Shown: one piece after another, positions 1-64,000 of the stretch
How positions within the stretch are numbered: the first letter of the stretch is position 1
How the letters are laid out: each line of letters opens with the position of its first letter
Assembly: GCA_030549335.1 (NCBI GenBank)
Contig: CM060198.1
Span: forward strand, 37,085,853 to 37,149,852
DNA length: 64,000 nt
Direction of reading: 5' to 3'
DNA from: Pontederia crassipes
Taxonomy: Eukaryota > Streptophyta > Magnoliopsida > Commelinales > Pontederiaceae
Made by a program: the position numbers and the translations under genes
Notes under the pieces: generated by a model
Databases searched by the model: none
Told to the model about the DNA's origin: nothing
Seen by the model: only the letters and a program-made list of their open reading frames with translations

Positions 1-3000
1 TATAACTTAGAGCTCTGAATCTTACTCTAAGACTCTAATCCCCAAGAGCTTTATCATTGATTGTAACGGTTCAACTTCGGTTGGAAATAGAGTTAAAGTT
101 CTATGAATCTATCACCTCTTGGGATAACCAAAGGTAGTAATAAGTATCTATAACTTAGTTATTTGAACCTTACTCTAAGACTCTAATCCCCAAGAGCTTT
201 ATCATTGATTGTAACGGTTCAACTTCGATTGGAAATAGATTTAAAGTTCTATGAATCTATCACCTCTTGGGATACCCAAAGGTAGTAATAAGTATCTATA
301 ACTTAGTTATTTGAACCTTACTCTAAGACTCTAATCCCCAAGAGCTTTATCATTGATTGTAACGGTTCAACTTCGGTTGGAAATAGAGTTAAAGTTCTAA
401 GGATCTATCACCTCTTAGGATACCCAAAGGTTGTAATAAGTATCCATAACTTAGTGGTTTGAACCTTACTCTAAGACTCTAATCTCCAAGAGCTTTATCA
501 TTGATTGTAACGGTTCAAATTCGTTTGGAAATAGAGTTAAAGTTCTAAAGGATCTATCACCTCTTAGGATGCCCAAAGGTTGAAAAGAGTATCTATAAAT
601 TAGTGGTTTGAAGCTTACTCTAAGACTCTATTCCCCAAGAGCTTTATCATTGATTGTAACGGTTCAACTTCGGTTGGAAATAGAGTTAAAGTTCTAAAGG
701 ATCTATCACCTCTTAGGATACCCAAATGTTGTAAAAAGTATCTATAACTTAGTTGTTTGAACCTTACTCTAAGACTATTCCCCAAGAGCTTTATCATTGA
801 TTGTAACGGTTCAACTTCGGTTGGAAATATAGTTACGGTTCTAAGGATCTATCAACTCTTTGGATACCCAAAGGTAGTAATAAATATCTATAACTTAGTG
901 GTTTGAACCTTACTCTAAGACTCTAATCCCCAAGAGCTTTATCATTGATTGTAACGGTTCAACTTCTGTTGGAAATAGAGTTAAAGTTCTAAGGATCTAT
1001 CACTTCTTGGGATACGCAAAGGTAGTAATAAGTATCTATAACTTTGTGATTTGAAACTTACTCTAAGATTCTAATCCACAAGAGCTTTATGATTGATTGT
1101 AACGGTTCAACTTCGGTTAGAAATAGAGTTAAAGTTCTAAGGATCTATCTCCTATTAGGATACCCAAAGGTTATAATAAGTATCTATAACTTAGTGGTTT
1201 GAACCTTACTCTAAGACTCTAATCCCCAAGAGCTTTATCAATGATTGTAACGGTTCAACTTCGGTTGGAAATAGAGTTAAAGTACTAAGTATCTATCACC
1301 TCTTAGGATACCTAAAGGTTGTAATAAGTATCTATAACTTAGTGATTTGAACCGTACTCTAAGACTCCAATCCCCAAGAGCTTTATAATTGATTGTAACG
1401 GTTCAACTTCGGTTGGAAATAGAGTTAAAGTTCTAAAGATCTATCACCTCTTGGGATACCCAAAGGCAGTAATAAGTATCTATAACTTAGTGGTTTGAAC
1501 CTTACTCTAAGACTCTAATCCCCAAGAGCTTTATCATTGATTGTAACGGTTCAACTTCGGTTGGAAATAGATTAAAGTTCTAAGGATCTATCACCTCTTT
1601 GGATACCCAAAGGTTGTAATAAGTATCTGTAACTTAGAGATTTGAACCTTACTCTAAGACTCTATTCCCCAAGAGCATTATCATTGATTGTAACGGTTCA
1701 ACTTCGGTTGGAAATAGAGTTATAGTTCTAAGGATCTATCACCTCTTAGGATACCCAAAAGTTGTAATAAGTGTGTATAACTTAGTGGTTTGAACCTTAC
1801 TCTAAGACTCTAATCCCCAAGAGCTTTATCATTGATTGTAACGGTTCAACTTCGTTTGGAAATAGAGTTAAAGTTCTATGAATCTATCACCTCTTTGGAT
1901 ACCCAAAGGTTGTAATAAGTATCTATAACTTAGTGGTTTGAACCTTACTCTAAGACTCTAATCCCCAAGAGCTTTGTCATTGATTGTAACGGTTCAACTT
2001 CGGTTGGAAATAGAGTTAAAGTTCTAAGGATCTATCACCTTTTAGGATACCCAAAGGTTGTAATAAGTATCTATAACTTAGTGGTTTGAACCTTACTCTA
2101 AGACTCTAAACCCCAAGAGCTTTATGATTGATTGTAACGGTTCAACTTCGGTTTGAAATAGAGTTAAAGTTCTATGGATCTGTCACCTCTTGGGATACCC
2201 AAAGGTAGTAATAAGTATCTATTACTTAGTGGTTTGAACCTTACTCTAAGACTCCAATCTCCAAGAGCTTTATCATTGATTGTAACGGTTCAAATTCGGT
2301 TGGAAATAGAGTTAAAGTTCTAAAGGATCTATCACCTCTTAGGATGCCCAAAGGTTGAAAAGAGTATCTATAACTTAGTGGTTCGAACCTTACTCTAAGA
2401 CTCTATCCCCCAAGAGTTTTATCATTGATTGTAACGGTTCAACTTCGGTTGGAAATAGAGTTAAGGTTCTAAGGATCTAACACCTTTTTGGATACCCAAA
2501 GGTAGTAATAAGTATCTATAACTTAGTGGTTTCAACCTTACTCCAAGATTCTAATCCCCAAGAGCTTTATCATTGTAACAGTTCAACTTCGGTTGGAAAT
2601 AGATTTAAAGTTCTAAGGATCTATCACCTATTGGGATACACAAAGGTAGTAATAAGTATCTATAACTTAGTGGTTTGAACCTTACTCTAAGACTCTAATC
2701 CCCAAGAGCTTTATCATTGATTGTAACGGTTCAACTTCGGTTGGAAATAGAGTTATAGTTCTAAGGATCTATCACCTCTTGGGATACCCAAAGGTAGTAA
2801 TAAGTATCTATAACTTAGTGGTTTGAACCTTACTCTAAGATTCTAATCCCCAAGAGCTTTATCATTGTAATGGTTCAACTTCGGTTGGGAATAGAGTTAA
2901 AGTTCTATGGATCTATCACCTCTTTGGATACCCAAAGGTTGTAATAAGTATCTATATAAGCTCTGAACCTTACTCTAAGACTCTAATCTCCAAGTGCTTT

Positions 3001-3244
3001 ATCATTGATTGTAACGGTTAAACTTCGGTTGAAAATAGAATTAAAGTTCTATCAATCTATCACCTCTTTGGAAACCCAAAGGTTGTAATAAGTATCTATA
3101 ACCTAGTGGTTTGAACCTTACTCTAAGACTCTAATCCCCAAGAGCTTTATCATTGATTGTAACGGTTCAACTTCTGTTGGAAATACAGTTAAAGTTCAAC
3201 GAATCTATCACCTCTTGGTCTACCCAAAGGTAGTAATAAGTATC
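1..3244 (+). repeat. Zone 0: diverged monomers without clear HOR
   Basis: About 22 monomers. Many carry private substitutions and small indels, for example AAATTCGTTTGG near 517, and 4-bp losses in TATCATTGATTG near 2572 and 2869. No block repeats at a fixed period with high identity. One recognisable pair is the monomer with AATCTCC, AAATTCG, CTAAAGG and GGATGCCCAAAGGTTGAAAAG, at about 480-595 and again about 1775 bp later (12 monomers). Lower homogeneity than the rest of the window suggests older or less often homogenised sequence, perhaps nearer an array edge. Confidence 0.7.
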
Positions 3245-4813
3245 TATAACTTAGTGGTTTGAACCTTACTCTAAGACTCTAATTCCCAAGAGCTTTATCA
3301 TTGAATGTAACGGTTCAACTTCGGTTGGAAATGTAGTTAAAGTTCTAAGGATCTATCACCTATTAGGATACCCAAAGGTTGTAATAAGTATGTATAACTT
3401 AGTGGTTTGAACATTACTCCAAGGCTCTAATCCCCAAGAGCTTTATCATTGATTGTAACAGTTTGACTTCAGTTGGAAATAGAGTTAAAGTTCTAAGGAT
3501 CTATCACCTCTTGGGATACCCAAAGGTTGTAATAAGTATCTATAACCTAGTGGTTTGAACCTTACTCTAAGAATCTAATCCCCAAGAGCATTATCATTGA
3601 TTGTAATGGTTCAACTTCGGTTGGAAATAGAGTTAAAGTTCTATGGATCTATCACCTCTTTGGATACCCAAAGGTTGTAATAAGTATCTATTACTTAGTG
3701 GTTTGAACCTTACTCTAAGACTTTTATTCCCCAAGAGCTTTATCATTGATTATAACGGTTCAACTTCGGTTGGAAATAGAGTTAAAGTTCTATGGATCTA
3801 TCACCTCTTGGGATACCCAAAGGTAGTAATAAGTATCTATTACTTAGTGGTTTGAACCTTACTCTAAGACTCTATTCCCCAAGAACTTTATCATTGATTG
3901 TAACGATTCAACTTCGGTTGGAAATAGAGTTAAAGTTCTATGGATTTATCACCTCTTGGGATACCCAAAGGTTGTAATAGGTATCTATAACTTAGTGGTT
4001 TAAACCTTACTCTAAGACTCTATTCCCCAAGAGCTTTATCATTGATTGTAACGGTTCAAATTCGGTTGGAAATAGAGTTAAAGTTCTAAGGATCTATCAC
4101 CTCTTGGGATACACAATAGTAGTAATAAGTATCTATTACTTAGTGGTTTGAACCTTACTCTAAGACTCTAATCCCCAAGAGCTTTATCAATGATTGTAAC
4201 GGTTCAACTTCGGTTGGAAATAGAGTTAAAGTTCTAAGGATCTATCACCTCTTGGGATACACAAAGGTAGTAATAAGTATCTATAACTTAGTGGTTTGAA
4301 CCTTACTCTAAGACTCTAATTCCCAAGAGCTTTATCATTGAATGTAACGGTTCAACTTCGGTTGGAAATAGAGTTAAAGTTCTAAGGATCTATCACTTTT
4401 TAGGATACCCAAAGGTAGTAATAAGTATCTATAACTTAGTGATTTGAACCTTACTCTAAGGCTCTAATCTCCAAGAGCTTTATCATTGATTGTAACGGTT
4501 CAACTTCGGCTGGAAATAGAGTTAAAGTTCTATCAATCTATCACCTCTTTGGAAACCCAAAGGTTGTAATAAGTATCTATAACTTAGTGGTTTGAACCTT
4601 ACTCTAAGACTCTAATCCCCAAGAGCTTTATCATTGATTGTAACGGTTCAACTTTTGTTGGAAATACAGTTAAAGTTCAAAGAATCTATCACCTCTTGGT
4701 CTACCCAAAGGTAGAAATAAGTACCTATAACTTAGTGGTTTGAACCTTACTCTAAGACTCTAATTCCCAAGAGCTTTATCATTGAATGTAACGGTTCAAC
4801 TTCGGTTGGAAAT
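3245..4813 (+). repeat. Zone A block, copied at 7823-9391 (offset 4578)
   Basis: The segment matches 7823-9391 with about eight differences that I could find in 1.57 kb, such as AAGGCTC/AAGACTC near 3424, CCTAG/CTTAG near 3547 and GGAAATAGAG/GGAAACAGAG near 4216. The match begins just after GTAATAAG and ends where ATGGAG differs from ATAGAG. It holds the two-monomer run with GACTTTTATTCCCC. The offset is 31 monomers less 10 bp; the missing 10 bp is the deletion at 6713. Confidence 0.8.
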
Positions 4814-7800
4814 GGAGTTAAAGTTCTAAGGATCTATCACCTCTTGGGATACCCAAAGGTTGTAATAAGTATCTATAACTTAGTGGTTTGAACCTTACTC
4901 TAAGACTCTAATCCCCAAGAGCTTTATCATTGATTGTAACAGTTCAACTTCAGTTGGAAATAGAGTTAAAGTTCTAAGGATCTATCACCTCTTAGGAGAC
5001 CCAAAGGTTGTAATAAGTATCTATAACTTAGAGCATTGAACCTTACTCTAAGACTCTAATTCCCAAGAGATTTATCATTGATTGTAACGGTTCAACTTCG
5101 GTTGGAAATAGAGTTTAAAGTTCTAAGGATCTATCACCTCTTGGTATACCCAAAGGTAGTAATAAGTATCTATAACTTAGTGGTTTGAACCTTACTCTAA
5201 GACTCTAATCCCCAAGAGCTTTATCATTGATTGTAACGGTTCAACTTCGGTTGGAAATAGAGTTAAAGTTCTATGGATCTATCACCTCTTTGGATACCCA
5301 AAGGTTGTAATAAGTATCTATAACTTAGAGATTTGAACCTTACTCTAAGACTCTATTCCCCAAGAGCATTATCATTGATTGTAACGTTTCAACATCGGCT
5401 GGAAATAGAGTTATAGTTCTAAGGATCTATCACCTCTTAGTATACCCAAAAGTTGTAATAAGTATGTATAACTTAGTGGTTTGAACCTTACTCTAAGACT
5501 CCAATCTCCAAGAGCTTTATCATTGATTGTAACTGTTCAACTTCGGTTGAAAATAGAGTTAAAGTTCTATCAATCTATCACCTGTTTGGAAAACCAAAGG
5601 TTGTAATAAGTATCTATAACTTAGTGGTTTGAACCTTACTCTAAGACTCTAATCCCCAAAAGCTTTATCATTGATTGTAACGGTTCAACTTTGGTTGGAA
5701 ATAGAGTTAAAGTTCTAAGGATCTATCACCTCTTTGGATACCCAAAGGTTGTAATAAGTATCCATAACTTAGTGGTTTGAACCTTACTCTAAGACTCTAA
5801 TCCTCAAGAGCTTTATCATTGATTGTAACGGTTCAACTTCTGTTGGAAATACAGTTAAAGTTCTAAGGATCTATCACCTCTTTGGATACCCAAAGGAAGT
5901 AATAAGTATCTATGACTTAGTGATTTGAACCTTACTCTAAGACTCTAATCCCAAGAGATTTATCATTGATTGTAACGGTTCAACTTCGGTTGGAAATAGA
6001 GTTAAAGTTCTAAGGATCTATCACCTCTTGGATACCCAAAGGTAGTAATAAGTATCTATAACTTAGTTATTTGAACCTTACTCTAAGACTCTAATCCCCA
6101 AGAGCTTTATCATTGATTGTAACGGTTCAACTTCGGTTGGAAATAGAGTTAAAGTTCTATGGATCAATCAACTCTTTGGATACCCAAAGGTTGTAATAAG
6201 TATCTATAACTTAGTGGTTTGAACCTTACTCTATGACTCTAATCCCCAAGAGCTTTATCATTTATTGTAACAGTTTAACTTCGGTTGGAAATAGAGTTAA
6301 AGTTCTATGGATCTATCACCTCTTGGGATACCCAAAGGTTGTAATAAGTATCTATAACTTAGTGGTTTGAACCTTACTCTAAGAATCTATTCCCCAAGAG
6401 CTTTATCATTGATTGTAACGGTTCTACTTCGATTGGAAATAGAGTTAAAGTTCTAGGGATCTATCACCTCTTTGGATACCCAAAGGTTGTAATAAGTATC
6501 TATAACTTAGTGGTTTGAACCTTACATTAAGACTCTAATCCCCAAGAGCTTTATCATTGATTGTAACGGTTCAACATCGGTTGGAAATAGAGATAAAGTT
6601 CTATGGATCTATCACCTCTTGGGATACCCAAAGGTTGTAATAAGTATCTATAACTGAGTGGTTTGAACCTTACTCTAAGACACAATTCCCCTAGAGCTTT
6701 ATCATTGATTGTATTCGGTTGGAAATAGAGTTAAAGTTCTAAGGATGTATCACCTCTTGGGATACACAAAGGTAGTAATAAGTATCTATAACTTAGTGGC
6801 TTGAACCTTACTCTAAGACTCTAATCCCCAAGAGCTTTATCATTGATTGTAACGGTTCAACTTCAGTTGGAAATAGAGTTAAAGTTCTATGGATCTATCA
6901 CCTCTTAGGATAGCCAAAGGTTGTAATAAGTATCCATAACTTAGTGGGTTGAACCTTACTCTAAGACTCTATTCCCCAAGAGCTTTATCATTGATTGTAA
7001 CGGTTCAACTTCGGTTGGAAATAGAGTTAACGTTCTAAGGATCTATCACCTCTTTGGATATCCAAAGGTAGTAATAAGTATCTATAACTTAGTGGTTTGA
7101 ACCTTACTCTAAGACTCTAATCCCCAAGAGCTTTATCATTGATTGTAACGGTTCAACTTCAGTTGGAAATAGAGTTAAAGTTCTAAGGATCTATCACCTC
7201 TTGGGATACACAAAGGTAGTAATAAGTATCTATAACTTAGTGGTTTGAACCTTATTCTAAGACTCTAATTCCCAAGAGCTTTATCATTGAATGTAACGGT
7301 TCAACTTCGGTTGGAAATAGAGTTAAAGTTCTAAGGATCTATCACCTCTTGGGATACACAAAGGTAGTAATAAGTATCTATTACTTTGCGGTTTGAACCT
7401 TACTCTAAGACTCTAATCCCCAAGAGCTTTATCATTGATTGTAACAGTTCAACTTCGGTTGGAAATAGAGTTAAAGTTCTATGGATCTATCACCTCTTGG
7501 GATACCCAAAGGTTGTAATAAGTATCTATAACTTAGTGGTTTGAACCTTACTCTAAGAATCTATTCCCCAAGAGCTTTATCATTGATTGTAACGGTTCTA
7601 CTTCGATTGGAAATAGAGTTAAAGTTCTAGGGATCTATCACCTCTTTGGATACCCAAAGGTTGTAATAAGTATCTATAACTTAGTGGTTTGAACCTTACA
7701 TTAAGACTCTAATCCCCAAGAGCTTTATCATTGAATGTAACGGTTCAACTTCGGTTGGAAATGGAGTTAAAGTTCTAAGGATCTATCACCTCTTAGGATA

Positions 7801-8694
7801 CCCAAAGGTTGTAATAAGTATGTATAACTTAGTGGTTTGAACCTTACTCTAAGACTCTAATTCCCAAGAGCTTTATCATTGAATGTAACGGTTCAACTTC
7901 GGTTGGAAATGTAGTTAAAGTTCTAAGGATCTATCACCTATTAGGATACCCAAAGGTTGTAATAAGTATGTATAACTTAGTGGTTTGAACATTACTCCAA
8001 GACTCTAATCCCCAAGAGCTTTATCATTGATTGTAACAGTTTGACTTCAGTTGGAAATAGAGTTAAAGTTCTAAGGATCTATCACCTCTTGGGATACCCA
8101 AAGGTTGTAATAAGTATCTATAACTTAGTGGTTTGAACCTTACTCTAAGAATCTAATCCCCAAGAGCATTATCATTGATTGTAATGGTTCAACTTCGGTT
8201 GGAAATAGAGTTAAAGTTCTATGGATCTATCACCTCTTTGGATACCCAAAGGTTGTAATAAGTATCTATTACTTAGTGGTTTGAACCTTACTCTAAGACT
8301 TTTATTCCCCAAGAGCTTTATCATTGATTATAACGGTTCAACTTCGGTTGGAAATAGAGTTAAAGTTCTATGGATCTATCACCTCTTGGGATACCCAAAG
8401 GTAGTAATAAGTATCTATTACTTAGTGGTTTGAACCTTACTCTAAGACTCTATTCCCCAAGAACTTTATCATTGATTGTAACGATTCAACTTCGGTTGGA
8501 AATAGAGTTAAAGTTCTATGGATTTATCACCTCTTGGGATACCCAAAGGTTGTAATAAGTATCTATAACTTAGTGGTTTAAACCTTACTCTAAGACTCTA
8601 TTCCCCAAGAGCTTTATCATTGATTGTAACGGTTCAACTTCGGTTGGAAATAGAGTTAAAGTTCTAAGGATCTATCACCTCTTGGGATACACAA
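3905..8694 (+). repeat. Large duplication, copy 1 (partner 10852-15650)
   Basis: About 4.8 kb (32 monomers) recur downstream. The offset is 6947 bp up to about 6712 and 6956 bp after it. The shift is explained by a 10-bp deletion here (GTATTCGG instead of GTAACAGTTCAACTTCGG) and a 1-bp loss in the partner (ACGGTCAAC near 12184). Shared rare markers include CACAATAGTAG (4113 and 11060), TCACTTTTTAGG (4394 and 11341), GAGTTTAAAG (5111 and 12058) and CACAATTCCCCTAGAG (about 6680 and 13627). The match ends where ACAATAG differs from ACAAAGG. Confidence 0.85.
6711..6720 (+). other. 10-bp deletion removing the left arm of dyad 1
   Basis: GATTGTATTCGGTTGG replaces GATTGTAACAGTTCAACTTCGGTTGG. The duplicated partner at about 13660 keeps the full sequence, so this is a deletion in the copy here. 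It is one of few monomers in which dyad 1 is destroyed by an indel rather than a substitution. Confidence 0.85.
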
Positions 8695-9303
8695 TAGTAG
8701 TAATAAGTATCTATTACTTAGTGGTTTGAACCTTACTCTAAGACTCTAATCCCCAAGAGCTTTATCAATGATTGTAACGGTTCAACTTCGGTTGGAAACA
8801 GAGTTAAAGTTCTAAGGATCTATCACCTCTTGGGATACACAAAGGTAGTAATAAGTATCTATAACTTAGTGGTTTGAACCTTACTCTAAGACTCTAATTC
8901 CCAAGAGCTTTATCATTGAATGTAACAGTTCAACTTCGGTTGGAAATAGAGTTAAAGTTCTAAGGATCTATCACTTTTTAGGATACCCAAAGGTAGTAAT
9001 AAGTATCTATAACTTAGTGATTTGAACCTTACTCTAAGGCTCTAATCTCCAAGAGCTTTATCATTGATTGTAACGGTTCAACTTCGGCTGGAAATAGAGT
9101 TAAAGTTCTATCAATCTATCACCTCTTTGGAAACCCAAAGGTTGTAATAAGAATCTATAACTTAGTGGTTTGAACCTTACTCTAAGACTCTAATCCCCAA
9201 GAGCTTTATCATTGATTGTAACGGTTCAACTTTTGTTGGAAATACAGTTAAAGTTCAAAGAATCTATCACCTCTTGGTCTACCCAAAGGTAGAAATAAGT
9301 ACC

Positions 9304-10440
9304 TATAACTTAGTGGTTTGAACCTTACTCTAAGACTCTAATTCCCAAGAGCTTTATCATTGAATGTAACGGTTCAACTTCGGTTGGAAATAGAGTTAAA
9401 GTTCTAAGGATCTATCACCTCTTGGGGTACACAAAGGTAGTAATAAGTATCTATTACTTTGCGGTTTGAACCTTACTCTAAGACTCTAATCCCCAAGAGC
9501 TTTATCATTGATTGTAACAGTTCAACTTCGGTTGGAAATAGAGTTAAAGTTCTATGGATCTATCACCTCTTGGGATACCCAAAGGTTGTAATAAGTATCT
9601 ATAACTTAGTGGTTTGAACCTTACTCTAAGAATCTATTCCCCAAGAGCTTTATCATTGATTGTAACGGTTCTACTTCGATTGGAAATAGAGTTAAAGTTC
9701 TAGGGATCTATCACCTCTTTGGATACCCAAAGGTTGTAATAAGTATCTATAACTTAGTGGTTTGAACCTTACATTAAGACTCTAATCCCCAAGAGCTTTA
9801 TCATTGAATGTAACGGTTCAACTTCGGTTGGAAATGGAGTTAAAGTTCTAAGGATCTATCACCTCTTAGGATACCCAAAGGTTGTAATAAGTATGTATAA
9901 CTTAGTGGTTTGAACCTTACTCTAAGACTCTAATTCCCAAGAGCTTTATCATTGAATGTAACGGTTCAACTTCGGTTGGAAATGTAGTTAAAGTTCTAAG
10001 AATCTATCACCTATTAGGATACCCAAAGGTTGTAATAAGTATGTATAACTTAGTGGTTTTAACATTACTCCAAGACTCTAATCCCCAAGAGCTTTATCAT
10101 TGATTGTAACAGTTTGACTTCAGTTGGAAATAGAGTTAAAGTTCTAAGGATCTATCACCTCTTGGGATACCCAAAGGTTGTAATAAGTATCTATAACTTA
10201 GTGGTTTGAACCTTACTCTAAGAATCTAATCCCCAAGAGCATTATCATTGATTGTAATGGTTCAACTTCGGTTGGAAATAGAGTTAAAGTTCTATGGATC
10301 TATCACCTCTTTGGATACCCAAAGGTTGTAATAAGTATCTATTACTTAGTGGTTTGAACCTTACTCTAAGACTTTTATTCCCCAAGAGCTTTATCATTGA
10401 TTATAACGGTTCAACTTCGGTTGGAAATAGAGTTAAAGTT
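9304..10440 (+). repeat. Third partial copy of the 7231-8370 block (offset 2073)
   Basis: This stretch follows 7231-8370 at an offset of 2073 bp (14 monomers plus 1). At about 10440 it skips one monomer relative to its source: the text jumps from the GACTTTTATTCCCC monomer directly to the TATGGATTTATC monomer, after which the offset is 1924 bp (13 monomers). The loss of exactly one monomer points to out-of-register exchange. Confidence 0.75.
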
Positions 10441-11328
10441 CTATGGATTTATCACCTCTTGGGATACCCAAAGGTTGTAATAAGTATCTATAACTTAGTG
10501 GTTTAAACCTTACTCTAAGACTCTATTCCCCAAGAGCTTTATCATTGATTGTAACGGTTCAACTTCGGTTGGAAATAGAGTTAAAGTTCTAAGGATCTAT
10601 CACCTCTTGGGATACACAATAGTAGTAATAAGTATCTATTACTTAGTGGTTTGAACCTTACTCTAAGACTCTAATCCCCAAGAGCTTTATCAATGATTGT
10701 AACGGTTCAACTTCGGTTGGAAACAGAGTTAAAGTTCTAAGGATCTATCACCTCTTGGGATACACAAAGGTAGTAATAAGTATCTATAACTTAGTGGTTT
10801 GAACCTTACTCTAAGACTCTAATTCCCAAGAGCTTTATCATTGAATGTAACGGTTCAACTTCGGTTGGAAATAGAGTTAAAGTTCTATGGATTTATCACC
10901 TCTTGGGATACCCAAAGGTTGTAATAAGTATCTATAACTTAGTGGTTTAAACCTTACTCTAAGACTCTATTCCCCAAGAGCTTTATCATTGATTGTAACG
11001 GTTCAACTTCGGTTGGAAATAGAGTTAAAGTTCTAAGGATCTATCACCTCTTGGGATACACAATAGTAGTAATAAGTATCTATTACTTAGTGGTTTGAAC
11101 CTTACTCTAAGACTCTAATCCCCAAGAGCTTTATCAATGATTGTAACGGTTCAACTTCGGTTGGAAACAGAGTTAAAGTTCTAAGGATCTATCACCTCTT
11201 GGGATACACAAAGGTAGTAATAAGTATCTATAACTTAGTGGTTTGAACCTTACTCTAAGACTCTAATTCCCAAGAGCTTTATCATTGAATGTAACGGTTC
11301 AACTTCGGTTGGAAATAGAGTTAAAGTT
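10441..11328 (+). repeat. Three-monomer tandem duplication, 444 bp
   Basis: CTATGGATTTATCACC occurs at 10441 and 10885, and GATACACAATAGTAG at 10611 and 11055, in each case exactly 444 bp (3 x 148) apart. The intervening text, including GGAAACAGAG, is repeated. This is a small local expansion nested inside Zone A, at the left edge of the second copy of the large duplication. Confidence 0.8.
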
Positions 11329-22326: not shown

Positions 22327-22347
22327 GTTGTAATAAGTATCTATAAC

Positions 22348-50563: not shown

Positions 50564-51160
50564 AGACTGTAATCCCCAAGAGCTTTATCATTAATTGTAA
50601 CGGTTCAACTTCGGTTGGAAACAGAGTTAAAGTTCTAAGGATCTATCACCTCTTAGGATACCCAAAGGTTGTAATAAGTATCCATAACTTAGTGGTTTGA
50701 ACCTTACTCTAAGACTCTAATCCCCAAGAGCTTTATTATTGATTGTAACGGTTCAACTTCGGTTGGAAATAGAGTTAAAGTACTAAATGATCTATCACCT
50801 CTTTAGATACCCAAAGGTTGTAATAAGTATCTATAACTTAGTGGTTTGAACCTTACTCTAAGACTCTAATCCCCAAGAGCTTTATCATTGATTGTAACGA
50901 TTCAACTTCGGTTGGAAATAGAGTTAAAGTTCTATGGATCTATCATCTCTTTGGATACCCAAAGGTTGTAATAAGTATCTATAACTTAGTGATTTGAACC
51001 GTACTCTAAGACTCTAATCCCCAAGAGCTTGATCATTGATTGTAACGGTTCAACTTCGGTTGGAATAGAGTTAAAGTTCTAAGGATCTATCACCTCTTGG
51101 GATACCTAAAGGTAGTAATAAGTATCTATAACTTAGTGATTTGAACTTACTCTAAGACTC

Positions 51161-51838: not shown

Positions 51839-51848
51839 GTATAAGTAT
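51780..51848 (+). other. Truncated 69-bp monomer marking the Zone E/F junction
   Basis: Successive GTAACGG landmarks at 51780 and 51849 are 69 bp apart instead of 148, so 79 bp are missing. The text reads ATCTCTTTGTATAAGTATG then directly GTAACGGTTTGAC. The bases from GGATACCC to GGTTG, and then from the next monomer start to GATTG, are absent. TTG repeats could have guided the first join. Everything to the right follows the Zone F order (offset 3697), so this is a breakpoint between two homogenisation domains. Confidence 0.85.
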
Positions 51849-53297
51849 GTAACGGTTTGACTTCGGTTGGAAATAGAGTTAAAGTTCTAAGGATCTATCA
51901 CCTCTTTGGATACCCAAAGGTTGTAATAAGTATCTATAACTTAGTGGTTTGAACCTTACTCTAAGACTCTAATCCCTAAGAGCTTTATCATTGATTATTA
52001 CGGTTCAACTTCGGTTGGAAATAGAGTTAAGGTTCTAAGGATCTATCACCTGTTAGGATACCCAAAGGTAGTAAGAAGTATTTATAACTTAGTGGTTTGA
52101 ACCTTACTCTAAGACTCTAATCCCCAAGAGCTTTATCATTGATTGTAACGGTTTAGCTTCGGTTGGAAATAGAGTTAAGGTTCTAAGGATCTATCACCTG
52201 TTGGGATACCCAAAGGTAGTAATAAGTATCTATAACTTAGTGGGTTGAACCTTACTCTAAGACTCTAATCCCCAAGAGTTTATCATTGATTGTAACGGTT
52301 CAACTTCGGTTGGAAATAGAGTTAAAGTTCTAAGGATCTATCACCTCTTAGGATACCCAAATGTTGTAATAAGTATCTATAACTTAGTGGTTTGAACCTT
52401 ACTCTAAGACTCTAATCCCCAAGAGCTTTATCATTCATTGTAACGGTTCAACTTCGGTTGGAAATAGAGTTAAAGTTCTAAGGATCTAGCACCTCTTAGG
52501 ATACCCAAAGGTTGTAAGAAGTATCTATAACTTAGTAGCTTGAACCTTACTCTAAGACGCTAATCCCCAAGAGCTCTATCATTGATTGTAACGGTACAAC
52601 TTTGGTTGGAAATACAGTTAAAGTTTTAAGGATCAATCACCTTTTGGGTTACCCAATGGTACTAATAAGTATCTATAACTTAGTGGTTTGAACCTTACTC
52701 TAAGACTCTAATTCCCAAGAGCTTTATCATTGATTGTAACGGTTCAACTTCGATCGGAAATAGAGTTAAAGTTCTAAGGATCTATCACCTTTTTGGATAC
52801 CCAAAGGTTGTAATAAGTATCTATAACTTAGAGATTTGAACCTTACTCTAAGACTCTATTCCCCAAGAGCATTACCATTGATTGTAACGGTTTGACTTCG
52901 GTTGGAAATAGAGTTAAAGTTCTAAGGATCTATCACCACTTAGGATACCCAAAGGTTGTAATAAGTATCTATAACTTAGTGGTTTGAACCTTACTCTAAG
53001 ACACTAATCCCCAATAGCTTTATCATTGATTGTAACGGTTTGACTTCGGTTGTAAATAGAGTTAAAGTTCTAAGGATCTATCACCTCTTTGGATACCCAA
53101 AGGTTGAAATAAGTATCTATAACTTAGTGGTTTGAACCTTACTCTAAGACTCTAATCCCCAAGAGCTTTATCATTGATTATAACGGTTCAACTTTGGTTG
53201 GAAATATAGTTAAGGTTCTAAGGATCTATCACCTCTTAGGATAGCCAAAGGTTGTAATAAGTATCTATAACTTAGTGGTTTGAACCTTACTCTAAGA
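51849..53297 (+). repeat. Zone F block, copied at 55546-56994 (offset 3697)
   Basis: Nearly ten monomers. Shared rare features: CCCTAAGAGC with GATTATTACGG, GGTTTAGCTTCGG, TTCATTGTAACGG, GACGCTAATCC, CTTCGATCGGAAATAG, GAGCATTACC and CAATAGC. Differences include GGTACAAC/GGTTCAAC near 52591 and CCACTTAGG/CCTCTTAGG near 52937. The match ends at GACTATTCCC versus GACTCTAATTCCC. Confidence 0.85.
52526..52673 (+). repeat. Distinctive GACGCTAATCC monomer type (copy 1 of 6)
   Basis: This monomer type combines TAGTAGCTTGAACC, GACGCTAATCC, GAGCTCTATC, AACTTTGGTTGG, AAATACAG, GTTTTAAGGATCAATC and, in some copies, TTTTGGGTTACCC. Further copies lie at 56223-56370, 60513-60660, 61252-61399, 61549-61696 and 63028-63175. 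It always follows a monomer with GTAAGAAGTATC (AAAGG or AAAAGG before it). It is the clearest landmark of Zone F. Confidence 0.85.
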
Positions 53298-54875
53298 CTA
53301 TTCCCAAGAGCTTTATCATTGATTGTAATGGTTCAACTTCGGTTGGAAATAGAGTTATGGTTCTAAAGATCTATCACCTCTTAGGATACCCAAAGGTAGT
53401 AATAAGTATCTATAACTTAGTGGTTTGAACCTTACTCTAAGACTCTAATCCCCAAGAGCTTTATCATTGATTGTAACGGTTCAACTTCGGTTGGAAATAG
53501 AGTTAAAGTTCCAAGGATCTATCACCTCTTGGGATACACAAAGGTAGTAATAAGTATCTATAACTTAGTGGTTTGAACATTACTCTAAGACTCTAATCCC
53601 CAAGAGCTTTATCATTGATTGTAACGGTTCAACTTCGGTTGGAAATAGAGTTAAAGTTCTAAGGACCTATCACCTCTTGGGATACCCGAAGGTAGTAATA
53701 AGTATCTATAGCTTAGTGGTTTGAACCTTACTCTAAGACTCTAATTCCCAAGAGCTTTATCAATGATTGTAACGGTTCAACTTCGATTTGAAATAAAGTT
53801 AAAGTTCTAAGGATCTATCACCTCTTAGGATACCCAAAGGTTGTAATAAGTATCAATAAATTAGTGGTTTGAACCTTACTCTAAGACTCTAATCCCCAAG
53901 ACCTTTATCATTGATTGTAACGGTTCAACTTCGGTTGGAAATAGAGTTAAAGTTCTATGGTTCTGTCACCTCTTGGAATACCCAAAGGTACTAAGAAGTA
54001 TCTATAACTTAGTGGTTTGAACCTTACTCTAAGACTCTAATCCCCAAGAGCTTTATCATTGATTGTAACGGTTCAACTTCGGTTGGAAATACAGTTAAAG
54101 TTCTAAGGATCTATCACCTCTTAGGATACCCGAAGGTAGTAATAAGTATCTATAACTTAGTGGTTTGAACCTTACTCTAAGACTCTAATTCCCAAGAGCT
54201 TTATCATTGATTGTTATGGTTCAACTTCGATTGGAAATAAAGTTAATGTTGTAAGGATCTATCACCTCTTTGGATACCCAAAGGTTGTAATAAGTATGTA
54301 TAACTTTGTGGTTTGAACCTTACTCTAAGACTCTAATCCACAAGAGCTTTATCATTGATTGTAACAGTTCAACTTCGGTTGGAAATAGAGTTATAGTTCT
54401 AAGGATCTATCACCTCTTAGGATACCCAAAGGTTGTAATAAGTATGTATATCTTTGTGGTTTGAACCTTACTCTAAGACTCTAATCCACAAGAGCTTTAT
54501 CATTGATTGTAACGGTTCAACTTCGGTTGGAAATAGAGTTAAAGTTCTAAAGGATCTAGCACCTCTTAGGATACCCAAAGGTTGTAATAAGTATCTATAA
54601 TTTAGTGGTTTCAACCTTACTCTAAGACTCTATTCTCCAAGAGCTTTATCATTGATTGTAACGGTTCAACTTCGGATGGAAATATAGTTAAGGTTCTAAG
54701 GATCTTTCACCTCTTCGGATACCCAAAGGTAGTAATAAGTATCTATAATTTAGTGGTTTGAATCTTACTCTAAGACTCTAATCCCCAAGAGCTTTATCAT
54801 TGATTGTAACGGTTCAACTTCGGATGGAAATAGAGTTAAGGTTCTAAGGATCTATCACCTGTTAGGATACCCAAA
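53298..54875 (+). repeat. Zone F interval with diverged monomers
   Basis: About 10.5 monomers that do not repeat as a block within the window. Private features include AATTTAGTGGTTTCAACC near 54599, CTTCGGATGG (near 54670 and 54820), CTCTTCGGATACC near 54711, and TTGTTATGG near 54211. Nothing but satellite is present. Confidence 0.65.
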
Positions 54876-57195
54876 GGTAGTAATAAGTATCTATAACTTA
54901 GTGGTTTGAACCTTACTCTAAGACTCTAATCCCCAAGAGCTTTATCATTGATTGTAACGGTTCAACTTCGGTTGGAAATAGAGTTAAGGTTCTAAGGATC
55001 TATCACCTGTTGGGATACCCAAAGGTAGTAATAAGTATCTATAACTTTGTGGTTTGAACCTTACTCTAAGACTCTAATCCCCAAGAGCTTTATCATTGAT
55101 TGTAACGGTTCAACTTCGGTTGGAAATAGAGTTAAAGTTCTAAAGGATCTAGCACCTCTTGGGATACCCAAAGGTTGTAATAAGTGTCTATAACTTAGTG
55201 GTTTGAACCTTACTCTAAGACTCTAATCCCCAAGAGCTCTATCATTGATTGTAACGGTTCAACTTCGGTAGGAAATACAATTAAGTTCTAAGGATCTATC
55301 ACCTGTTGGGATACCCAAAGGTTGTAATAAGTATCTATAACTTAGTGGTTTGAACCTTACTCTAAGACTCTAATCCCCAAGAGCTTTATCATTGATTGTA
55401 ACGGTTCAACTTCGGTTGGAAATAGAGTTAAAGTTCTAAGGATCTATCACCTCTAAGGATACCCAAAGGTTGTGTTAAGTATCTATAACTTAGTGGTTTG
55501 AACCTTACTCTAAGACTCTAATCCCCAAGAGCTTTATCATTGATTGTAACGGTTTGACTTCGGTTGGAAATAGAGTTAAAGTTCTAAGGATCTATCACCT
55601 CTTTGGATACCCAAAGGTTGTAATAAGTATCTATAACTTAGTGGTTTGAACCTTACTCTAAGACTCTAATCCCTAAGAGCTTTATCATTGATTATTACGG
55701 TTCAACTTCGGTTGGAAATAGAGTTAAGGTTCTAAGGATCTATCACCTGTTAGGATACCCAAAGGTAGTAAGAAGTATTTATAACTTAGTGGTTTGAACC
55801 TTACTCTAAGACTCTAATCCCCAAGAGCTTTATCATTGATTGTAACGGTTTAGCTTCGGTTGGAAATAGAGTTAAGGTTCTAAGGATCTATCACCTGTTG
55901 GGATACCCAAAGGTAGTAATAAGTATCTATAACTTAGTGGGTTGAACCTTACTCTAAGACTCTAATCCCCAAGAGTTTATCATTGATTGTAACGGTTCAA
56001 CTTCGGTTGGAAATAGAGTTAAAGTTCTAAGGATCTATCACCTCTTAGGATACCCAAATGTTGTAATAAGTATCTATAACTTAGTGGTTTGAACCTTACT
56101 CTAAGACTCTAATCCCCAAGAGCTTTATCATTCATTGTAACGGTTCAACTTCGGTTGGAAATAGAGTTAAAGTTCTAAGGATCTAGCACCTCTTAGGATA
56201 CCCAAAGGTTGTAAGAAGTATCTATAACTTAGTAGCTTGAACCTTACTCTAAGACGCTAATCCCCAAGAGCTCTATCATTGATTGTAACGGTTCAACTTT
56301 GGTTGGAAATACAGTTAAAGTTTTAAGGATCAATCACCTTTTGGGTTACCCAATGGTAGTAATAAGTATCTATAACTTAGTGGTTTGAACCTTACTCTAA
56401 GACTCTAATTCCCAAGAGCTTTATCATTGATTGTAACGGTTCAACTTCGATCGGAAATAGAGTTAAAGTTCTAAGGATCTATCACCTTTTTGGATACCCA
56501 AAGGTTGTAATAAGTATCTATAACTTAGAGATTTGAACCTTACTCTAAGACTCTATTCCCCAAGAGCATTACCATTGATTGTAACGGTTTGACTTCGGTT
56601 GGAAATAGAGTTAAAGTTCTAAGGATCTATCACCTCTTAGGATACCCAAAGGTTGTAATAAGTATCTATAACTTAGTGGTTTGAACCTTACTCTAAGACA
56701 CTAATCCCCAATAGCTTTATCATTGATTGTAACGGTTTGACTTCGGTTGTAAATAGAGTTAAAGTTCTAAGGATCTATCACCTCTTTGGATACCCAAAGG
56801 TTGAAATAAGTATCTATAACTTAGTGGTTTGAACCTTACTCTAAGACTCTAATCCCCAAGAGCTTTATCATTGATTATAACGGTTCAACTTCGGTTGGAA
56901 ATATAGTTAAGGTTCTAAGGATCTATCACCTCTTAGGATAGCCAAAGGTTGTAATAAGTATCTATAACTTAGTGGTTTGAACCTTACTCTAAGACTCTAA
57001 TTCCCAAGAGCTTTATCATTGATTGTAACGGTTCAACTTCGATTGGAAATAGAGATAAAGTTCTAAGGATCTATCACCTCTTTGGATACCCAAAGGTTGT
57101 AATAAGTATCTATAACCTAGTGGTTTGAACCTTACTCTAAGACTCTAATCCCCATGAGCTTTATCATTGATTTTAACGGTTCAACTTCGATTGGA
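54876..57195 (+). repeat. Zone F block, copied at 61681-64000 (offset 6805)
   Basis: About 2.3 kb. Landmarks correspond exactly: TTTGTGG at 55046 and 61851, AACGGTTTGAC at 55548 and 62353, and CCCCATGAGC with GATTTTAACGG near 57151 and 63956. I noticed no substitution on reading the two. Since the copy is still matching at the last base of the window, the duplicated block is at least 2.3 kb long. Confidence 0.85.
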
Positions 57196-57840
57196 AATAG
57201 AGTTAAAGTTCGAAGGATCTATCACCTCTTTGGGATACCCAAAGGTAGTAATAAGTATCTATAACTTAGTGGTTTGAACCTTACTCTAAGACTCTAATCC
57301 CCAAGAGCTTTATCATTGATTGTAACGGTTCAACTTCGGTAGGAAATAGAGTTAAGGTTCTAAGGATCTATCACCTGTTGGGATACCCAAAGGTAGTAAG
57401 AAGTATCTATAACTTAGTGGTTTGAACCATACTCTAAGACTCTAATTCCCAAGAGCTTTATCATTGATTGTAACGGTTCAACTTCGATTGGAAATAGAGA
57501 TAAAGTTCTAAGGATCTATCACCTCTTTGGATACCCAAAGGTTGTAATAAGTATCTATAACCTAGTGGTTTGAACCTTACTCTAAGACTCTAATCCCCAT
57601 GAGCTTTATCATTGATTGTAACGGTTCAACTTCGATTGGAAATAGAGTTAAAGTTCGAAGGATCTATCACCTCTTTGGGATACCCAAAGGTAGTAATAAG
57701 TATCTATAACTTAGTGGTTTGAACCTTACTCTAACACTCTAATCCCCAAGAGCTTTATCATTGATTGTAACGGTTCAACTTCGGTAGGAAATAGAGTTAA
57801 GGTTCTAAGGATCTATCACCTGTTGGGATACCCAAAGGTA
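56992..57840 (+). repeat. Three-monomer tandem duplication, 445 bp
   Basis: The run TTCCCAAGAG, CTTCGATTGGAAATAGAGAT, CCTAGTGG, CCCCATGAGC, TTCGAAGG, CTTTGGGATACC, CGGTAGG occurs from 57001 and again from 57446. The extra base over 444 comes from CTTTGGGATACC. Confidence 0.78.
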
Positions 57841-60512
57841 GTAATAAGTATCTATAACTTAGTGGTTTGAACCTTACTCTCAGACTCTAATCCCCAAGAG
57901 CTTTATCATTGATTGTAACGGTTTGACTTCGGTTGGAAATAGAGTTAAAGTTCTAAGGATCTATCACCTCTTTGGATACCCAAAGGTTGTAATAAGTATC
58001 TATAACTTAGTGGTTTGAACCTTACTCTAAGACTTTAATCCCCAAGAGCTTTATCATTGATTATAACGGTTCAACTTCGGTTGGAAATAGAGTTAAGTTT
58101 CTAAGGATCTATCACCTGTTGGGATACCCAAAGGTAGTAATAAGTATCTATGACTTAGTGGTTTGAACCTTACTCTAAGAATCTAATCCCCAAGAGCTTT
58201 ATCATTGATTGTAACGGTTTGACTTTGGTTGGAAATAGAGTTAAAGTTCTAAGGATCTATCACCTCTTTGGATACCCAAAGGTTATAATAAGTATCTATA
58301 ACTTAGTGGTTTGAACCTTACTCTAAGACTCTAATCCCCATGAGCTTTATCATTGATTGTAACGGTTCAGCTTCGGTTGGAAATAGAGTTAAGTTTCTAA
58401 GGATCTATCACCTGTTGGGATACCCAATGGTAGTAATAAATATCTATAACTTAGTGGTTTGAACCTCACTCAAAGACTCTAATCCCCAAGAGTTTATCAT
58501 TGATTATAACGGTTCAACTTCGGTTGGAAATAGAGTTAAAGTTCTAAGGATCTATCACCTCTTAGGATACCCAAAGGTTGTAATAAGTATCTATAACTTA
58601 GTGGTTTGAACCTCAATCTAAGTCTCTAATCTCCAAGAGTTTATCATTGATTGTAACGGTTCAACTTCGATTGGAAATAGAGTTAAAGTTCTAAGGATCT
58701 ATCACCTCTTAGGACACCCAAAGGTTGTAATAAGTATCTATAACTTAGTGGTTTGAACCTTACTCTAAGACTCTAATCCCCAAGAGCTTTATCATTGATT
58801 GTAATGGTTCAACTTCGGTTGGAAATAGAGTTAAGGTTCTAAGGATCTATCACCACTTGGGATACCCAAAGGTAGTAATAAGTATCTATAACTTAGTGGT
58901 ATGAACCTTACTCTGACTCTAATCCCCATGAGCTTTATCATTGATTGTAACGGTTCAACTTCGGTTGGAAATAGAGTTAAAGTTCTAAGGATCTATCACC
59001 TCTTTGGGATACCCAAAGGTAGTAATAAGTATCTATAACTTAGTGGTTTGAACCTTACTCTAAGACTCTAATCCCCAAGAGCTCTATCATTGATTCTAAC
59101 GGTTCAACTTCGGTTGGAAATACAGTTAAAGTTCTAAGGATCTATCAACTCTTTGGGATACCCAAAGGTAGTAATATGTATTCATAACTTAGTGGTTTGA
59201 ACCTTACTCTAAGACTCTAATCCCCAAGAGCTTTATCATTGATTGTAACGGTTCAACTTCGGTAGGAAATAGAGTTAAGGTTCTAAGGATCTATCACCTG
59301 TTGGGATACCCAAAGGTAGTAATAAGTATCTATTACTTAGTGGTTTGAACCTTACTCTAAGACTCTTATCCCCAAGAGCTTTATCATTGATTGTAACGGT
59401 TTGACTTCGGTTGGAAATAGAGTTAAAGTTCTAAGGATCTATCACCTCTTTGGATACCCAACGGTTGTAATAAGTATCTATAACTTAGTGGTTTGAACCT
59501 TACTCTAAGACTCTAATCCCCAAGAGCTTTATCATTGATTATAACGGTTCAACTTCGGTTGGAAATAGAGTTAAGTTTCTAAGGATCTATCACCTGTTGG
59601 GATACCCAAAGGTAGTAATAAGTATCTATAACTTAGTGGTTTGAACCTCACTCTAAGACTCTAATCCCCAAGAGTTTATCATTGATTATAACGGTTCAAC
59701 TTCGGTTGGAAATAGAGTTAAGGTTCTAAGGATCTATCACCTGTTGGGATACCCAAAGGTAGTAATAAGTATCTATTACTTAGTGGTTTGAACCTTACTC
59801 TAAGACTCTAATCCCCAAGAGCTTTATCATTGATTGTAACGGTTTGACTTCGGTTGGAAATAGAGTTAAAGTTCTAAGGATCTATCACCTCTTTGGATAC
59901 CCAAAGGTTGTAATAAGTATCTATAACTTAGTGGTTTGAACCTTACTCTAAGACTCTAATCCCTAAGAGCTTTATCATTGATTATAACGGTTCAACTTCG
60001 GTTGGAAATAGAGTTAAGGTTCTAAGGATCTATCACCTGTTAGGATACCCAAAGGTAGTAATAAGTATCTATAACTTAGTGGTTTGAACCTTACTCTAAG
60101 ACTCTAATCCCCAAGAGCTTTATCATTGATTGTAACGGTTCAACTTCGGTTGGAAATAGAGTTAAGGTTCTAAGGATCTATCACCTGTTGGGATACCCAA
60201 AGGTAGTAATAAGTATCTATAACTTAGTGGGTTGAACCTTACTCTAAGACTCTAATCCCCAAGAGTTTATCATTGATTGTAACGGTTCAACTTCGGTTGG
60301 AAATAGAGTTAAAGTTCTAAGGATCTATCACCTCTTAGGATACCCAAATGTTGTAATAAGTATCTATAACTTAGTGGTTTGAACCTTACTCTAAGACTCT
60401 AATCCCCAAGAGCTTTATCATTGATTGTAACGGATCAACTTCGGTTGGAAATAGAGTTAAAGTTCTAAGGATCTAGCACCTCTTAGGATACCCAAAGGTT
60501 GTAAGAAGTATC
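57841..60512 (+). repeat. Zone F middle part, short-range related monomers
   Basis: About 18 monomers alternating between a GGTTTGACTTCGG/CTCTTTGGATACC type and a GATTATAACGG/GTTAAGTTTC/CACCTGTTGGG type, so dimer-like order is visible around 57900-59650. Single-base losses giving GAGTTTATC are frequent (58490, 58637, 59672, 60265). No other sequence class is present. Confidence 0.65.
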
Positions 60513-61200
60513 TATAACTTAGTATCTTGAACCTTACTCTAAGACGCTAATCCCCAAGAGCTCTATCATTGATTGTAACGGTTCAACTTTGGTTGGAAAT
60601 ACAGTTAAGGTTTTAAGGATCAATCACCTTTTGGGTTACCCAAAGGTAGTAATAAGTATCTATAACTTAGTGGTTAAACCTTACTCTAAGACTCTAATTC
60701 CCAAGAGCTTTATCATTGATTGTAACGGTTCAACTTCGATCGGAAATAGAGTTAAAGTTCTAAGGATCTATCACCTCTTTGGATACCCAAAGGTTGTAAT
60801 AAGTATCTATAACTTAGTGGTTTGAACCTTACGCTAAGACTCTAATCCCCAAGTGCTTTATCATTGATTATAACGGTTCAACTTCGGTTGGAAATAGAGT
60901 TAAGGTTCGAAGGATCTATCACCTGTTAGGATACCCAAAGGTAGTAATAAGTATCTATAACTTAGTGGGTTGAACCTTACTCTAAGACTCTAATCCCCAA
61001 GAGTTTATCATTGATTGTAACGGTTCAACTTCGGTTGGAAATAGAGTTAAAGTTCTAAGGATCTATCACCTCTTAGGATACCCAAAGGTTGTAATAAGTA
61101 TCTATAACTTAGTGGTTTGAACCTTACTCTAAGACTCTAATCCCCAAGAGCTTTATCATTGATTGTAACAGTTCAACTTCGGTTGGAAATAGAGTTAAAG

Positions 61201-61696
61201 TTCTAAGGATCTAGCACCTCTTAGGATACCCAAAAGGTTGTAAGAAGTATCTATAACTTAGTAGCTTGAACCTTACTCTAAGACGCTAATCCCCAAGAGC
61301 TCTATCATTGATTGTAACGGTTCAACTTTGGTTGGAAATACAGTTAAAGTTTTAAGGATCAATCACCTCTTGGGATACCCAATGGTAGTAATAAGTATCT
61401 ATAACTTAGTGGTTTGAACCTTACTCTAAGACTCTAATCCCCAAGAGCTTTATCATTGATTGTAACAGTTCAACTTCGGTTGGAAATAGAGTTAAAGTTC
61501 TAAGGATCTAGCACCTCTTAGGATACCCAAAAGGTTGTAAGAAGTATCTATAACTTAGTAGCTTGAACCTTACTCTAAGACGCTAATCCCCAAGAGCTCT
61601 ATCATTGATTGTAACGGTTCAACTTTGGTTGGAAATACAGTTAAAGTTTTAAGGATCAATCACCTCTTGGGATACCCAATGGTAGTAATAAGTATC
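61201..61696 (+). repeat. Recent dimer duplication (297 bp) in Zone F
   Basis: CCCAAAAGGTTGTAAGAAG (one extra A) occurs at 61229 and 61526, 297 bp apart, each followed by the GACGCTAATCC monomer. The two dimers look identical. The extra A is found only here, so the second dimer was copied from the first (or the reverse) after that insertion. Confidence 0.82.
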
Positions 61697-64000
61697 TATA
61701 ACTTAGTGGTTTGAACCTTACTCTAAGACTCTAATCCCCAAGAGCTTTATCATTGATTGTAACGGTTCAACTTCGGTTGGAAATAGAGTTAAGGTTCTAA
61801 GGATCTATCACCTGTTGGGATACCCAAAGGTAGTAATAAGTATCTATAACTTTGTGGTTTGAACCTTACTCTAAGACTCTAATCCCCAAGAGCTTTATCA
61901 TTGATTGTAACGGTTCAACTTCGGTTGGAAATAGAGTTAAAGTTCTAAAGGATCTAGCACCTCTTGGGATACCCAAAGGTTGTAATAAGTGTCTATAACT
62001 TAGTGGTTTGAACCTTACTCTAAGACTCTAATCCCCAAGAGCTCTATCATTGATTGTAACGGTTCAACTTCGGTAGGAAATACAATTAAGTTCTAAGGAT
62101 CTATCACCTGTTGGGATACCCAAAGGTTGTAATAAGTATCTATAACTTAGTGGTTTGAACCTTACTCTAAGACTCTAATCCCCAAGAGCTTTATCATTGA
62201 TTGTAACGGTTCAACTTCGGTTGGAAATAGAGTTAAAGTTCTAAGGATCTATCACCTCTAAGGATACCCAAAGGTTGTGTTAAGTATCTATAACTTAGTG
62301 GTTTGAACCTTACTCTAAGACTCTAATCCCCAAGAGCTTTATCATTGATTGTAACGGTTTGACTTCGGTTGGAAATAGAGTTAAAGTTCTAAGGATCTAT
62401 CACCTCTTTGGATACCCAAAGGTTGTAATAAGTATCTATAACTTAGTGGTTTGAACCTTACTCTAAGACTCTAATCCCTAAGAGCTTTATCATTGATTAT
62501 TACGGTTCAACTTCGGTTGGAAATAGAGTTAAGGTTCTAAGGATCTATCACCTGTTAGGATACCCAAAGGTAGTAAGAAGTATTTATAACTTAGTGGTTT
62601 GAACCTTACTCTAAGACTCTAATCCCCAAGAGCTTTATCATTGATTGTAACGGTTTAGCTTCGGTTGGAAATAGAGTTAAGGTTCTAAGGATCTATCACC
62701 TGTTGGGATACCCAAAGGTAGTAATAAGTATCTATAACTTAGTGGGTTGAACCTTACTCTAAGACTCTAATCCCCAAGAGTTTATCATTGATTGTAACGG
62801 TTCAACTTCGGTTGGAAATAGAGTTAAAGTTCTAAGGATCTATCACCTCTTAGGATACCCAAATGTTGTAATAAGTATCTATAACTTAGTGGTTTGAACC
62901 TTACTCTAAGACTCTAATCCCCAAGAGCTTTATCATTCATTGTAACGGTTCAACTTCGGTTGGAAATAGAGTTAAAGTTCTAAGGATCTAGCACCTCTTA
63001 GGATACCCAAAGGTTGTAAGAAGTATCTATAACTTAGTAGCTTGAACCTTACTCTAAGACGCTAATCCCCAAGAGCTCTATCATTGATTGTAACGGTTCA
63101 ACTTTGGTTGGAAATACAGTTAAAGTTTTAAGGATCAATCACCTTTTGGGTTACCCAATGGTAGTAATAAGTATCTATAACTTAGTGGTTTGAACCTTAC
63201 TCTAAGACTCTAATTCCCAAGAGCTTTATCATTGATTGTAACGGTTCAACTTCGATCGGAAATAGAGTTAAAGTTCTAAGGATCTATCACCTTTTTGGAT
63301 ACCCAAAGGTTGTAATAAGTATCTATAACTTAGAGATTTGAACCTTACTCTAAGACTCTATTCCCCAAGAGCATTACCATTGATTGTAACGGTTTGACTT
63401 CGGTTGGAAATAGAGTTAAAGTTCTAAGGATCTATCACCTCTTAGGATACCCAAAGGTTGTAATAAGTATCTATAACTTAGTGGTTTGAACCTTACTCTA
63501 AGACACTAATCCCCAATAGCTTTATCATTGATTGTAACGGTTTGACTTCGGTTGTAAATAGAGTTAAAGTTCTAAGGATCTATCACCTCTTTGGATACCC
63601 AAAGGTTGAAATAAGTATCTATAACTTAGTGGTTTGAACCTTACTCTAAGACTCTAATCCCCAAGAGCTTTATCATTGATTATAACGGTTCAACTTCGGT
63701 TGGAAATATAGTTAAGGTTCTAAGGATCTATCACCTCTTAGGATAGCCAAAGGTTGTAATAAGTATCTATAACTTAGTGGTTTGAACCTTACTCTAAGAC
63801 TCTAATTCCCAAGAGCTTTATCATTGATTGTAACGGTTCAACTTCGATTGGAAATAGAGATAAAGTTCTAAGGATCTATCACCTCTTTGGATACCCAAAG
63901 GTTGTAATAAGTATCTATAACCTAGTGGTTTGAACCTTACTCTAAGACTCTAATCCCCATGAGCTTTATCATTGATTTTAACGGTTCAACTTCGATTGGA

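Follow-up and report, generated by a model that had tools for sequence, protein, structure and literature searches.

Local tandem duplications as the likely source of patchiness in a 148-bp satellite array of Pontederia crassipes

Introduction

When neighbouring domains of a satellite array repeat at different periods, do they record separate centres of amplification, or can one process acting along the whole array leave the same pattern? This question is raised by a 64,000-bp stretch of Pontederia crassipes (C16:37085853-37149852, in a 64.7-Mb contig of a 1.13-Gb genome of 43 contigs), hereafter the window, which is a single uninterrupted head-to-tail array of a 148-bp satellite on the plus strand, as delineated by Tandem Repeats Finder (TRF) and segmentation. 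A preliminary description of the window proposed a mosaic of zones, each with its own higher-order repeat (HOR) period and diagnostic variants, and attributed them to several independent amplification centres. We find that local blocks of near-identical copies are indeed present within one satellite, but that some of the periods and some of the borders do not hold. The patchiness is likely to be the footprint of recent register-keeping tandem duplications that can fall anywhere along the array and act on an already mixed pool of monomers. Duplication of neighbouring copies in place is the usual mode of change in repeat arrays, and a known kind of biology.

Results

Blocks of near-identical copies in a single satellite

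Wraparound alignment resolves the window into 433 monomers, the last truncated by the window end, with a length of 144-153 bp in 426 of them. The monomers have a mean identity of 95.8% to the consensus and a mean pairwise identity of 92.7%, or 93.1% for the 430 monomers of more than 130 bases; the analyses of runs and pairs below were made on these 430, three of at most 130 bases being dropped. The zones share one monomer family, as had been proposed, and one orientation. No transposon insertion was found within the window; pieces of retrotransposon reading frames are present at the array's left edge. The register was judged from monomer lengths, since matched segments necessarily agree in phase by the way in which they are built and their agreement is no evidence. 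Its one break of this kind in the window is a junction of two partial monomers (Table 1), which coincides with the most distinct border, that between blocks E and F.

Near-identical monomer pairs form 29 runs of six or more in the window. At the strictest setting, runs of at least four pairs with at most one difference each number 21, versus none in 40 shuffles of monomer order, and 28 such runs are recovered when up to three differences are allowed, versus a shuffle mean of 0.025. Base-level matching yields 48 segments with a divergence of 0 to 1.83%, the partners lying at most 12.5 kb apart within the window and at most 18.5 kb apart when the flanks are included. As de-duplicated monomers are 4.2% from their consensus, the blocks appear to be young. 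The repeated units, each in about 2 to 4 copies, give way to others every 5 to 14 kb, and no running period extends across the whole window or the 13.3 kb of immediate flank.

The individual blocks differ in their offsets: block A, for which a period of about 32 monomers had been given, is a set of overlapping duplications at 4578 bp (31 monomers), 6946-6956 bp (47), 4883 bp (33), 2369 bp (16), 2073 bp (14), 444 bp (3), 11534 bp (78) and others, with no 32-mer period. In block B the main offset is 26 monomers, the 25 of the preliminary description (3720 bp) being secondary; the copies at 19805-23763 and 23673-27631 differ by 12 mismatches in 3959 bp, and a partial third copy lies at 30361-33143. 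The 22-monomer period of block C is confirmed, the two copies having 3 mismatches in 3342 bp and one 159-bp monomer each, as are the 9-monomer period of block E and, exactly, the offsets of 3697 and 6805 bp of block F. Block F continues beyond the window to window coordinate 72985 via a further 3699-bp duplication. The stretches previously listed as less ordered (1-3244, 33-35 kb and 41.6-45.9 kb) are roughly right. However, 33.6-34.7 kb matches 37.9-39.0 kb at 97.6%, and the list lacks 16.9-18.7 kb, where there is no base-level matched segment either.

Table 1. Features of the window, in window coordinates
Feature	Coordinates	Strand	Basis
148-bp satellite array, type-1 subfamily	1..64000	+	TRF, segmentation, subfamily scoring
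Least ordered stretch	1..3244	+	Monomer runs, base-level matching
Block A, overlapping duplications, no single period	3245..16879	+	Monomer runs, base-level matching
Block B, 26-monomer unit (3868 bp)	18762..33188	+	Monomer runs, base-level matching
Block C, 22-monomer unit (3266 bp), two copies	35008..41615	+	Monomer runs, base-level matching
Stretch D, without duplicates of at least 6 monomers	41616..45864	+	Monomer runs, base-level matching
Block E, 9-monomer unit (1330/1334 bp), about 4 copies	45865..51376	+	Monomer runs, base-level matching
Junction out of register, with partial monomers of 122 and 95 bp, at the left edge of block F	51718..51934	+	TRF, segmentation
Block F, tandem duplication of 46 monomers (6805 bp) and duplications of 25 monomers (3697/3699 bp)	51848..64000	+	Base-level matching

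Do the zones mark separate amplification centres?

One alternative regards the zones as fixed amplification centres, local hot spots that each have monomer variants of their own. The zones were tested with the borders originally proposed (3245, 17000, 35000, 41600, 45900 and 51850) and circularly shifted zones as controls. Of 92235 pairs, 961 are at least 98% identical, and 64.2% of these fall inside zones versus 40.7% under shifts (9 of 1000 shifts as high), a point in favour of such centres. The nearest neighbour lies in the same zone for 79.3% of monomers versus 49.1% (8 of 1000). In mean identity the zones hardly stand out, at 0.9330 for pairs inside a zone and 0.9300 for pairs from different zones, and 480 of 1000 shifts give a gap as large. 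Random sets of six borders do as well in 21 of 3000 cases if kept at least 3 kb apart, and in 536 of 5000 if unrestricted. When single borders are moved, those at 3245, 17000 and 51850 prove well placed (3, 4 and 2 of 25 alternatives as good), in contrast to those at 35000, 41600 and 45900 (10, 15 and 11 of 25), so that half of the six are unremarkable at the monomer level, which speaks against the centres. The borders measured in our own analysis scored below those of the preliminary description (0.608 versus 0.642). The clearest discontinuity, again in favour of the centres, is a minimum near 51-51.9 kb, spanned by 23 near-identical pairs versus 136-141 expected.

The variants said to be diagnostic of the zones are a second line of evidence. 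Over 40 variable columns, the proposed zones give an Fst-like measure of 0.0612 and shifted ones 0.0475, with 3 of 300 shifts as high. Once near-identical monomers are collapsed within zones, which keeps 197 of the 430 and 43 columns and leaves inserted bases uncounted, it becomes 0.0566 versus 0.0579 (193 of 300 as high): beyond recent copies, substitutions distinguish the proposed zones no better than shifted ones. Label shuffles of the collapsed set reach at most 0.041, and hence some spatial structure is left, though not tied to these borders; identity in this set is nearly flat with distance, at 0.922-0.930 up to 50 kb and 0.9185 beyond. What does survive of the diagnostic variants is a 3-base insertion. 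It is found in 23 monomers of the window, two of them being the 159-bp ones of block C. Of the 21 that remain (window 18623-33929 and 43575), 20 fall within 17-35 kb and the last is at 43.6 kb; collapsing at 98% leaves six and one, respectively. In six further stretches of this array, the 519 distances between monomers include none of 150-154 bp. Block B thus has one marker of its own, which favours amplification centres.

A uniform process gives similar patchiness

In the process that we prefer, tandem duplications of a few to about 46 monomers, together with unseen deletions, would preserve the monomer register; they may proceed through unequal exchange between misaligned sister copies or through repair copying. 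The variants would have been mixed beforehand, most simply by short-tract gene conversion. In the de-duplicated set the association between variants is small and close to random, yet above chance: rbar is 0.0115, permuted columns average 0.0003 and reach at most 0.0059 in 100 permutations, and median r2 is near chance except within 5 bp (0.017 versus 0.005), with means of 0.013-0.13 that are raised by a few pairs. Twenty-five variants are seen at least 10 times in these 197 monomers and hold 47% of the substitution differences.

Simulation of uniform duplication and deletion with short conversion (24 runs) gives 29.5 runs of near-identical pairs (5-95%: 12-63) versus 29 observed, a coverage of 0.74 (0.53-0.85) versus 0.72, and 3.5 components (1.2-6.9) versus 5. 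As a uniform-rate process produces similar patchiness, special amplification centres are unnecessary, and we regard them as unlikely. What stands of the original proposal is that amplification is local, as indicated by the short distance between matches and by a neighbouring minus-strand domain with offsets of its own. Simulations without conversion were rejected since they are too homogeneous (19% near-identical pairs versus 1%) or, with a higher mutation input, too diverged (mean identity 0.28-0.84); rbar in three of them is 0.08-0.17.

A different history, in which one monomer was rapidly amplified and its copies mutated independently before recent local duplications, without conversion, is somewhat less probable still. 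Over 24 runs such a star-like history agrees with the observations in runs (28.5), coverage (0.72) and components (3.5; 2-6.7). Nevertheless, it gives a median of 0 common variants versus 26 observed, and its 95% points fall short of the observed values for rbar (0.003 versus 0.012), mean identity (0.923 versus 0.931) and near-identical pairs (0.95% versus 1.04%).

Several points weigh against our own account of duplication acting on a converted pool. The simulation parameters were hand-picked after small grids. The observed mean identity of 0.931 exceeds the 95% point of the conversion model (0.926; median 0.917) and the observed rbar of 0.012 exceeds its 0.008, whereas the 26 common variants fall below the 37-56 simulated (median 45) and their share of 0.48 below 0.70-0.84. 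This overshoot of common variants and undershoot of mean identity make the conversion model a sketch rather than a fit. Longer conversion tracts accommodate rbar (95% point 0.013), but the 5 observed components then exceed 4.85. In conversion-free runs, which retain about 13 monomers, rbar has a median of 0.061 and spans -0.001 to 0.235 (5-95%); with so wide a range, rbar alone cannot separate the models in the 24-run set. Recurrent mutation could mimic conversion. Lastly, the insertion monomers of block B are zone-specific beyond recent copies.

Is the window the edge of established human alpha-satellite-like HOR arrays? The roughly four copies of the 9-mer in block E and the partial further copies in blocks B and F point that way. 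Alpha-satellite-type organization, one multimonomer unit many times in tandem, is absent from the window, though: the low copy number, the rapid change of unit and the missing common period noted above had already disfavoured this explanation, which we consider improbable, and the term HOR is generous for units in such few copies. An assembly artefact, through false duplications or haplotype mixing, would also count against our account and is the least credible alternative. In its favour, one duplication is identical inside the window (the 6805-bp one of block F, with 0 mismatches in 2320 bp before the window end cuts it). Against it, this duplication extends with the right flank to 7073 bp with 9 mismatches, and the other duplicates show scattered differences and common private indels.

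Strand switches and a sharp subfamily border

The satellite region of C16 was sampled from 36.97 to 38.85 Mb, and the window lies in its outer part. The satellite starts at about 36.971 Mb, with the adjoining 75 kb to the left devoid of it; it is absent from the stretches sampled at 36.5, 36.0, 35.0 and 39.2 Mb and present at 38.85 Mb. The region is of megabase scale and possibly centromeric.

The plus-strand domain of the window reaches a strand switch at C16:37082535/37082536 (flank piece L001), 3.3 kb left of the window, and strand changes a second time between 37.70 Mb (+) and 38.2 Mb (-). The adjoining minus-strand domain, of 29.6 kb, has its own offsets and local duplications. It has no stretch of at least 400 bp at 98.5% identity in common with the domain of the window, and near-identical single-monomer pairs between the two amount to 0.1%. 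Farther out, non-satellite stretches interrupt the array at its left edge, which is also in minus orientation. Here a Pfam scan of 10 reading-frame pieces, six of them with a match (those in L020 and L025 lay outside the scan), detects retrotransposon domains above the cut-off in flank pieces L023 and L027: gag, protease, RNase H and an integrase zinc finger. The same edge holds, in L021 and L022 (C16:36979820-36991324), five copies of a 260-268 bp insert that has inverted ends (CTGTTTGGTT) and perhaps a CTT target repeat. These copies, one of which spans the L021/L022 seam, are 82-99% alike by alignment score and probably spread along with local duplication of the satellite; we take the insert to be Tourist-like, and together with the retrotransposon genes it points to a plant genome.

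To the right, two subfamilies of the satellite, separated by ten consensus substitutions, meet at C16:37200000-37222000, 50-72 kb from the window. They were scored on nine letters chosen from consensus differences in the same stretches, the tenth (column 120) being left out as it varies within type 1; any third letter was credited to neither type, and monomers that were incomplete or of poor quality were excluded (from the type-1 stretches, 4 of 524, 6 of 202 and 2 of 68). All 782 scored monomers of the three type-1 stretches, 66 of them at 37.19 Mb, have 0-4 type-2 letters, and those of the left edge 0-3; all 238 monomers of the type-2 side, from 37.25 to 38.85 Mb, have 6-9, as do 18 of 18 at 37.222 and 37.236 Mb. 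Hence the border lies between 37.200 and 37.222 Mb. No scored monomer has five type-2 letters, one has four and two have six. Type 2 was sampled in seven stretches (36 kb) and two of 1.4 kb; pairwise identity is 0.940-0.987 in the seven versus 0.921-0.931 in the three type-1 stretches. Exact matches to a 28-mer that carries the type-1 letter at one diagnostic site number 1577 genome-wide; those listed, in contig order, lie on C1 and C4-C10, with clusters on C8 (16.4-19.8 Mb), C9 (46.9-49.2 Mb) and C10 (31.3-32.9 Mb). The satellite is therefore not private to C16.

Relationship to known satellites

The Rfam scan of the window gave no family above threshold. Exact monomer pieces had no match in GTDB or viral contigs, nor did 1330 bases of the satellite against plasmids with blastn, as expected for a eukaryotic satellite. 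A DNA search of the whole genome with the satellite, by a method that skips very common words, gave no match; literature phrase searches on 148-bp repeats found nothing matching its sequence, and three monomer pieces of 18-19 bases and their reverse complements have no occurrence in searchable paper texts. Two candidate features were dropped: the CENP-B box, which we take to be NTTCGNNNNANNCGGGN, has 2 matches in the window at up to two mismatches versus a shuffle mean of 63, rarer than chance, and single-strand folding of the monomer into a hairpin is unremarkable (z -0.88).

The closest parallel in organization is Arabidopsis thaliana CEN178, for which TRASH is described as applying the term HOR to any two blocks of equal length whose monomers are similar, the defaults being 3 monomers and 5 differences (PMC10199239). 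Under these defaults the window has 101 pairs covering 83% of its monomers, versus a mean of 38.5 pairs and 23% coverage in 40 shuffles (maximum 69 pairs). It thus has local HORs of the Arabidopsis type, with block matches beyond shuffles and, in the window and its adjoining flanks, offsets that change from block to block rather than one common period. Unlike CEN178 as described there (PMC10199239), the monomer is of 148 bp and unbroken blocks reach 26 monomers. The array also resembles the layered satellite expansion described for primate (PMC11062924) and Brachypodium (PMC10910784) centromeres in having more divergent repeats and retrotransposons toward its edge; in the sampled stretches, edge monomers are more divergent than inner ones on the left side. 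The Salicaceae counsel caution against calling the window a centromere, for satellites with homogenised HOR structure are described there outside CENH3 chromatin (PMC12046899); these are another satellite, likened to ours by description. The 148-bp repeats reported from Quercus lobata (PMC10988972), water hyacinth (CEN148; PMC10938897) and strawberry chromosome 1B (PMC10807706) agree with it in monomer length, the one feature compared, and the main text of the Q. lobata genome paper (PMC9018854) does not contain the number 148.

Discussion

Separate amplification centres cannot be deduced from the patchiness of a repeat map alone. It is conceivable, though we hold it only tentatively, that homogenisation is confined to neighbourhoods and does not cross a sharp line: substitution variants are almost randomly mixed on the type-1 side, yet the two subfamilies remain distinct with no more than 22 kb between them. 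If so, exchange would be held to much less than the array length by distance, strand, chromatin or age. About 0.14 Mb of C16 here takes in duplications of 0 to 1.83% divergence, a strand switch and an abrupt change of subfamily, and so offers a compact site at which to measure the distance over which satellite repeats exchange.

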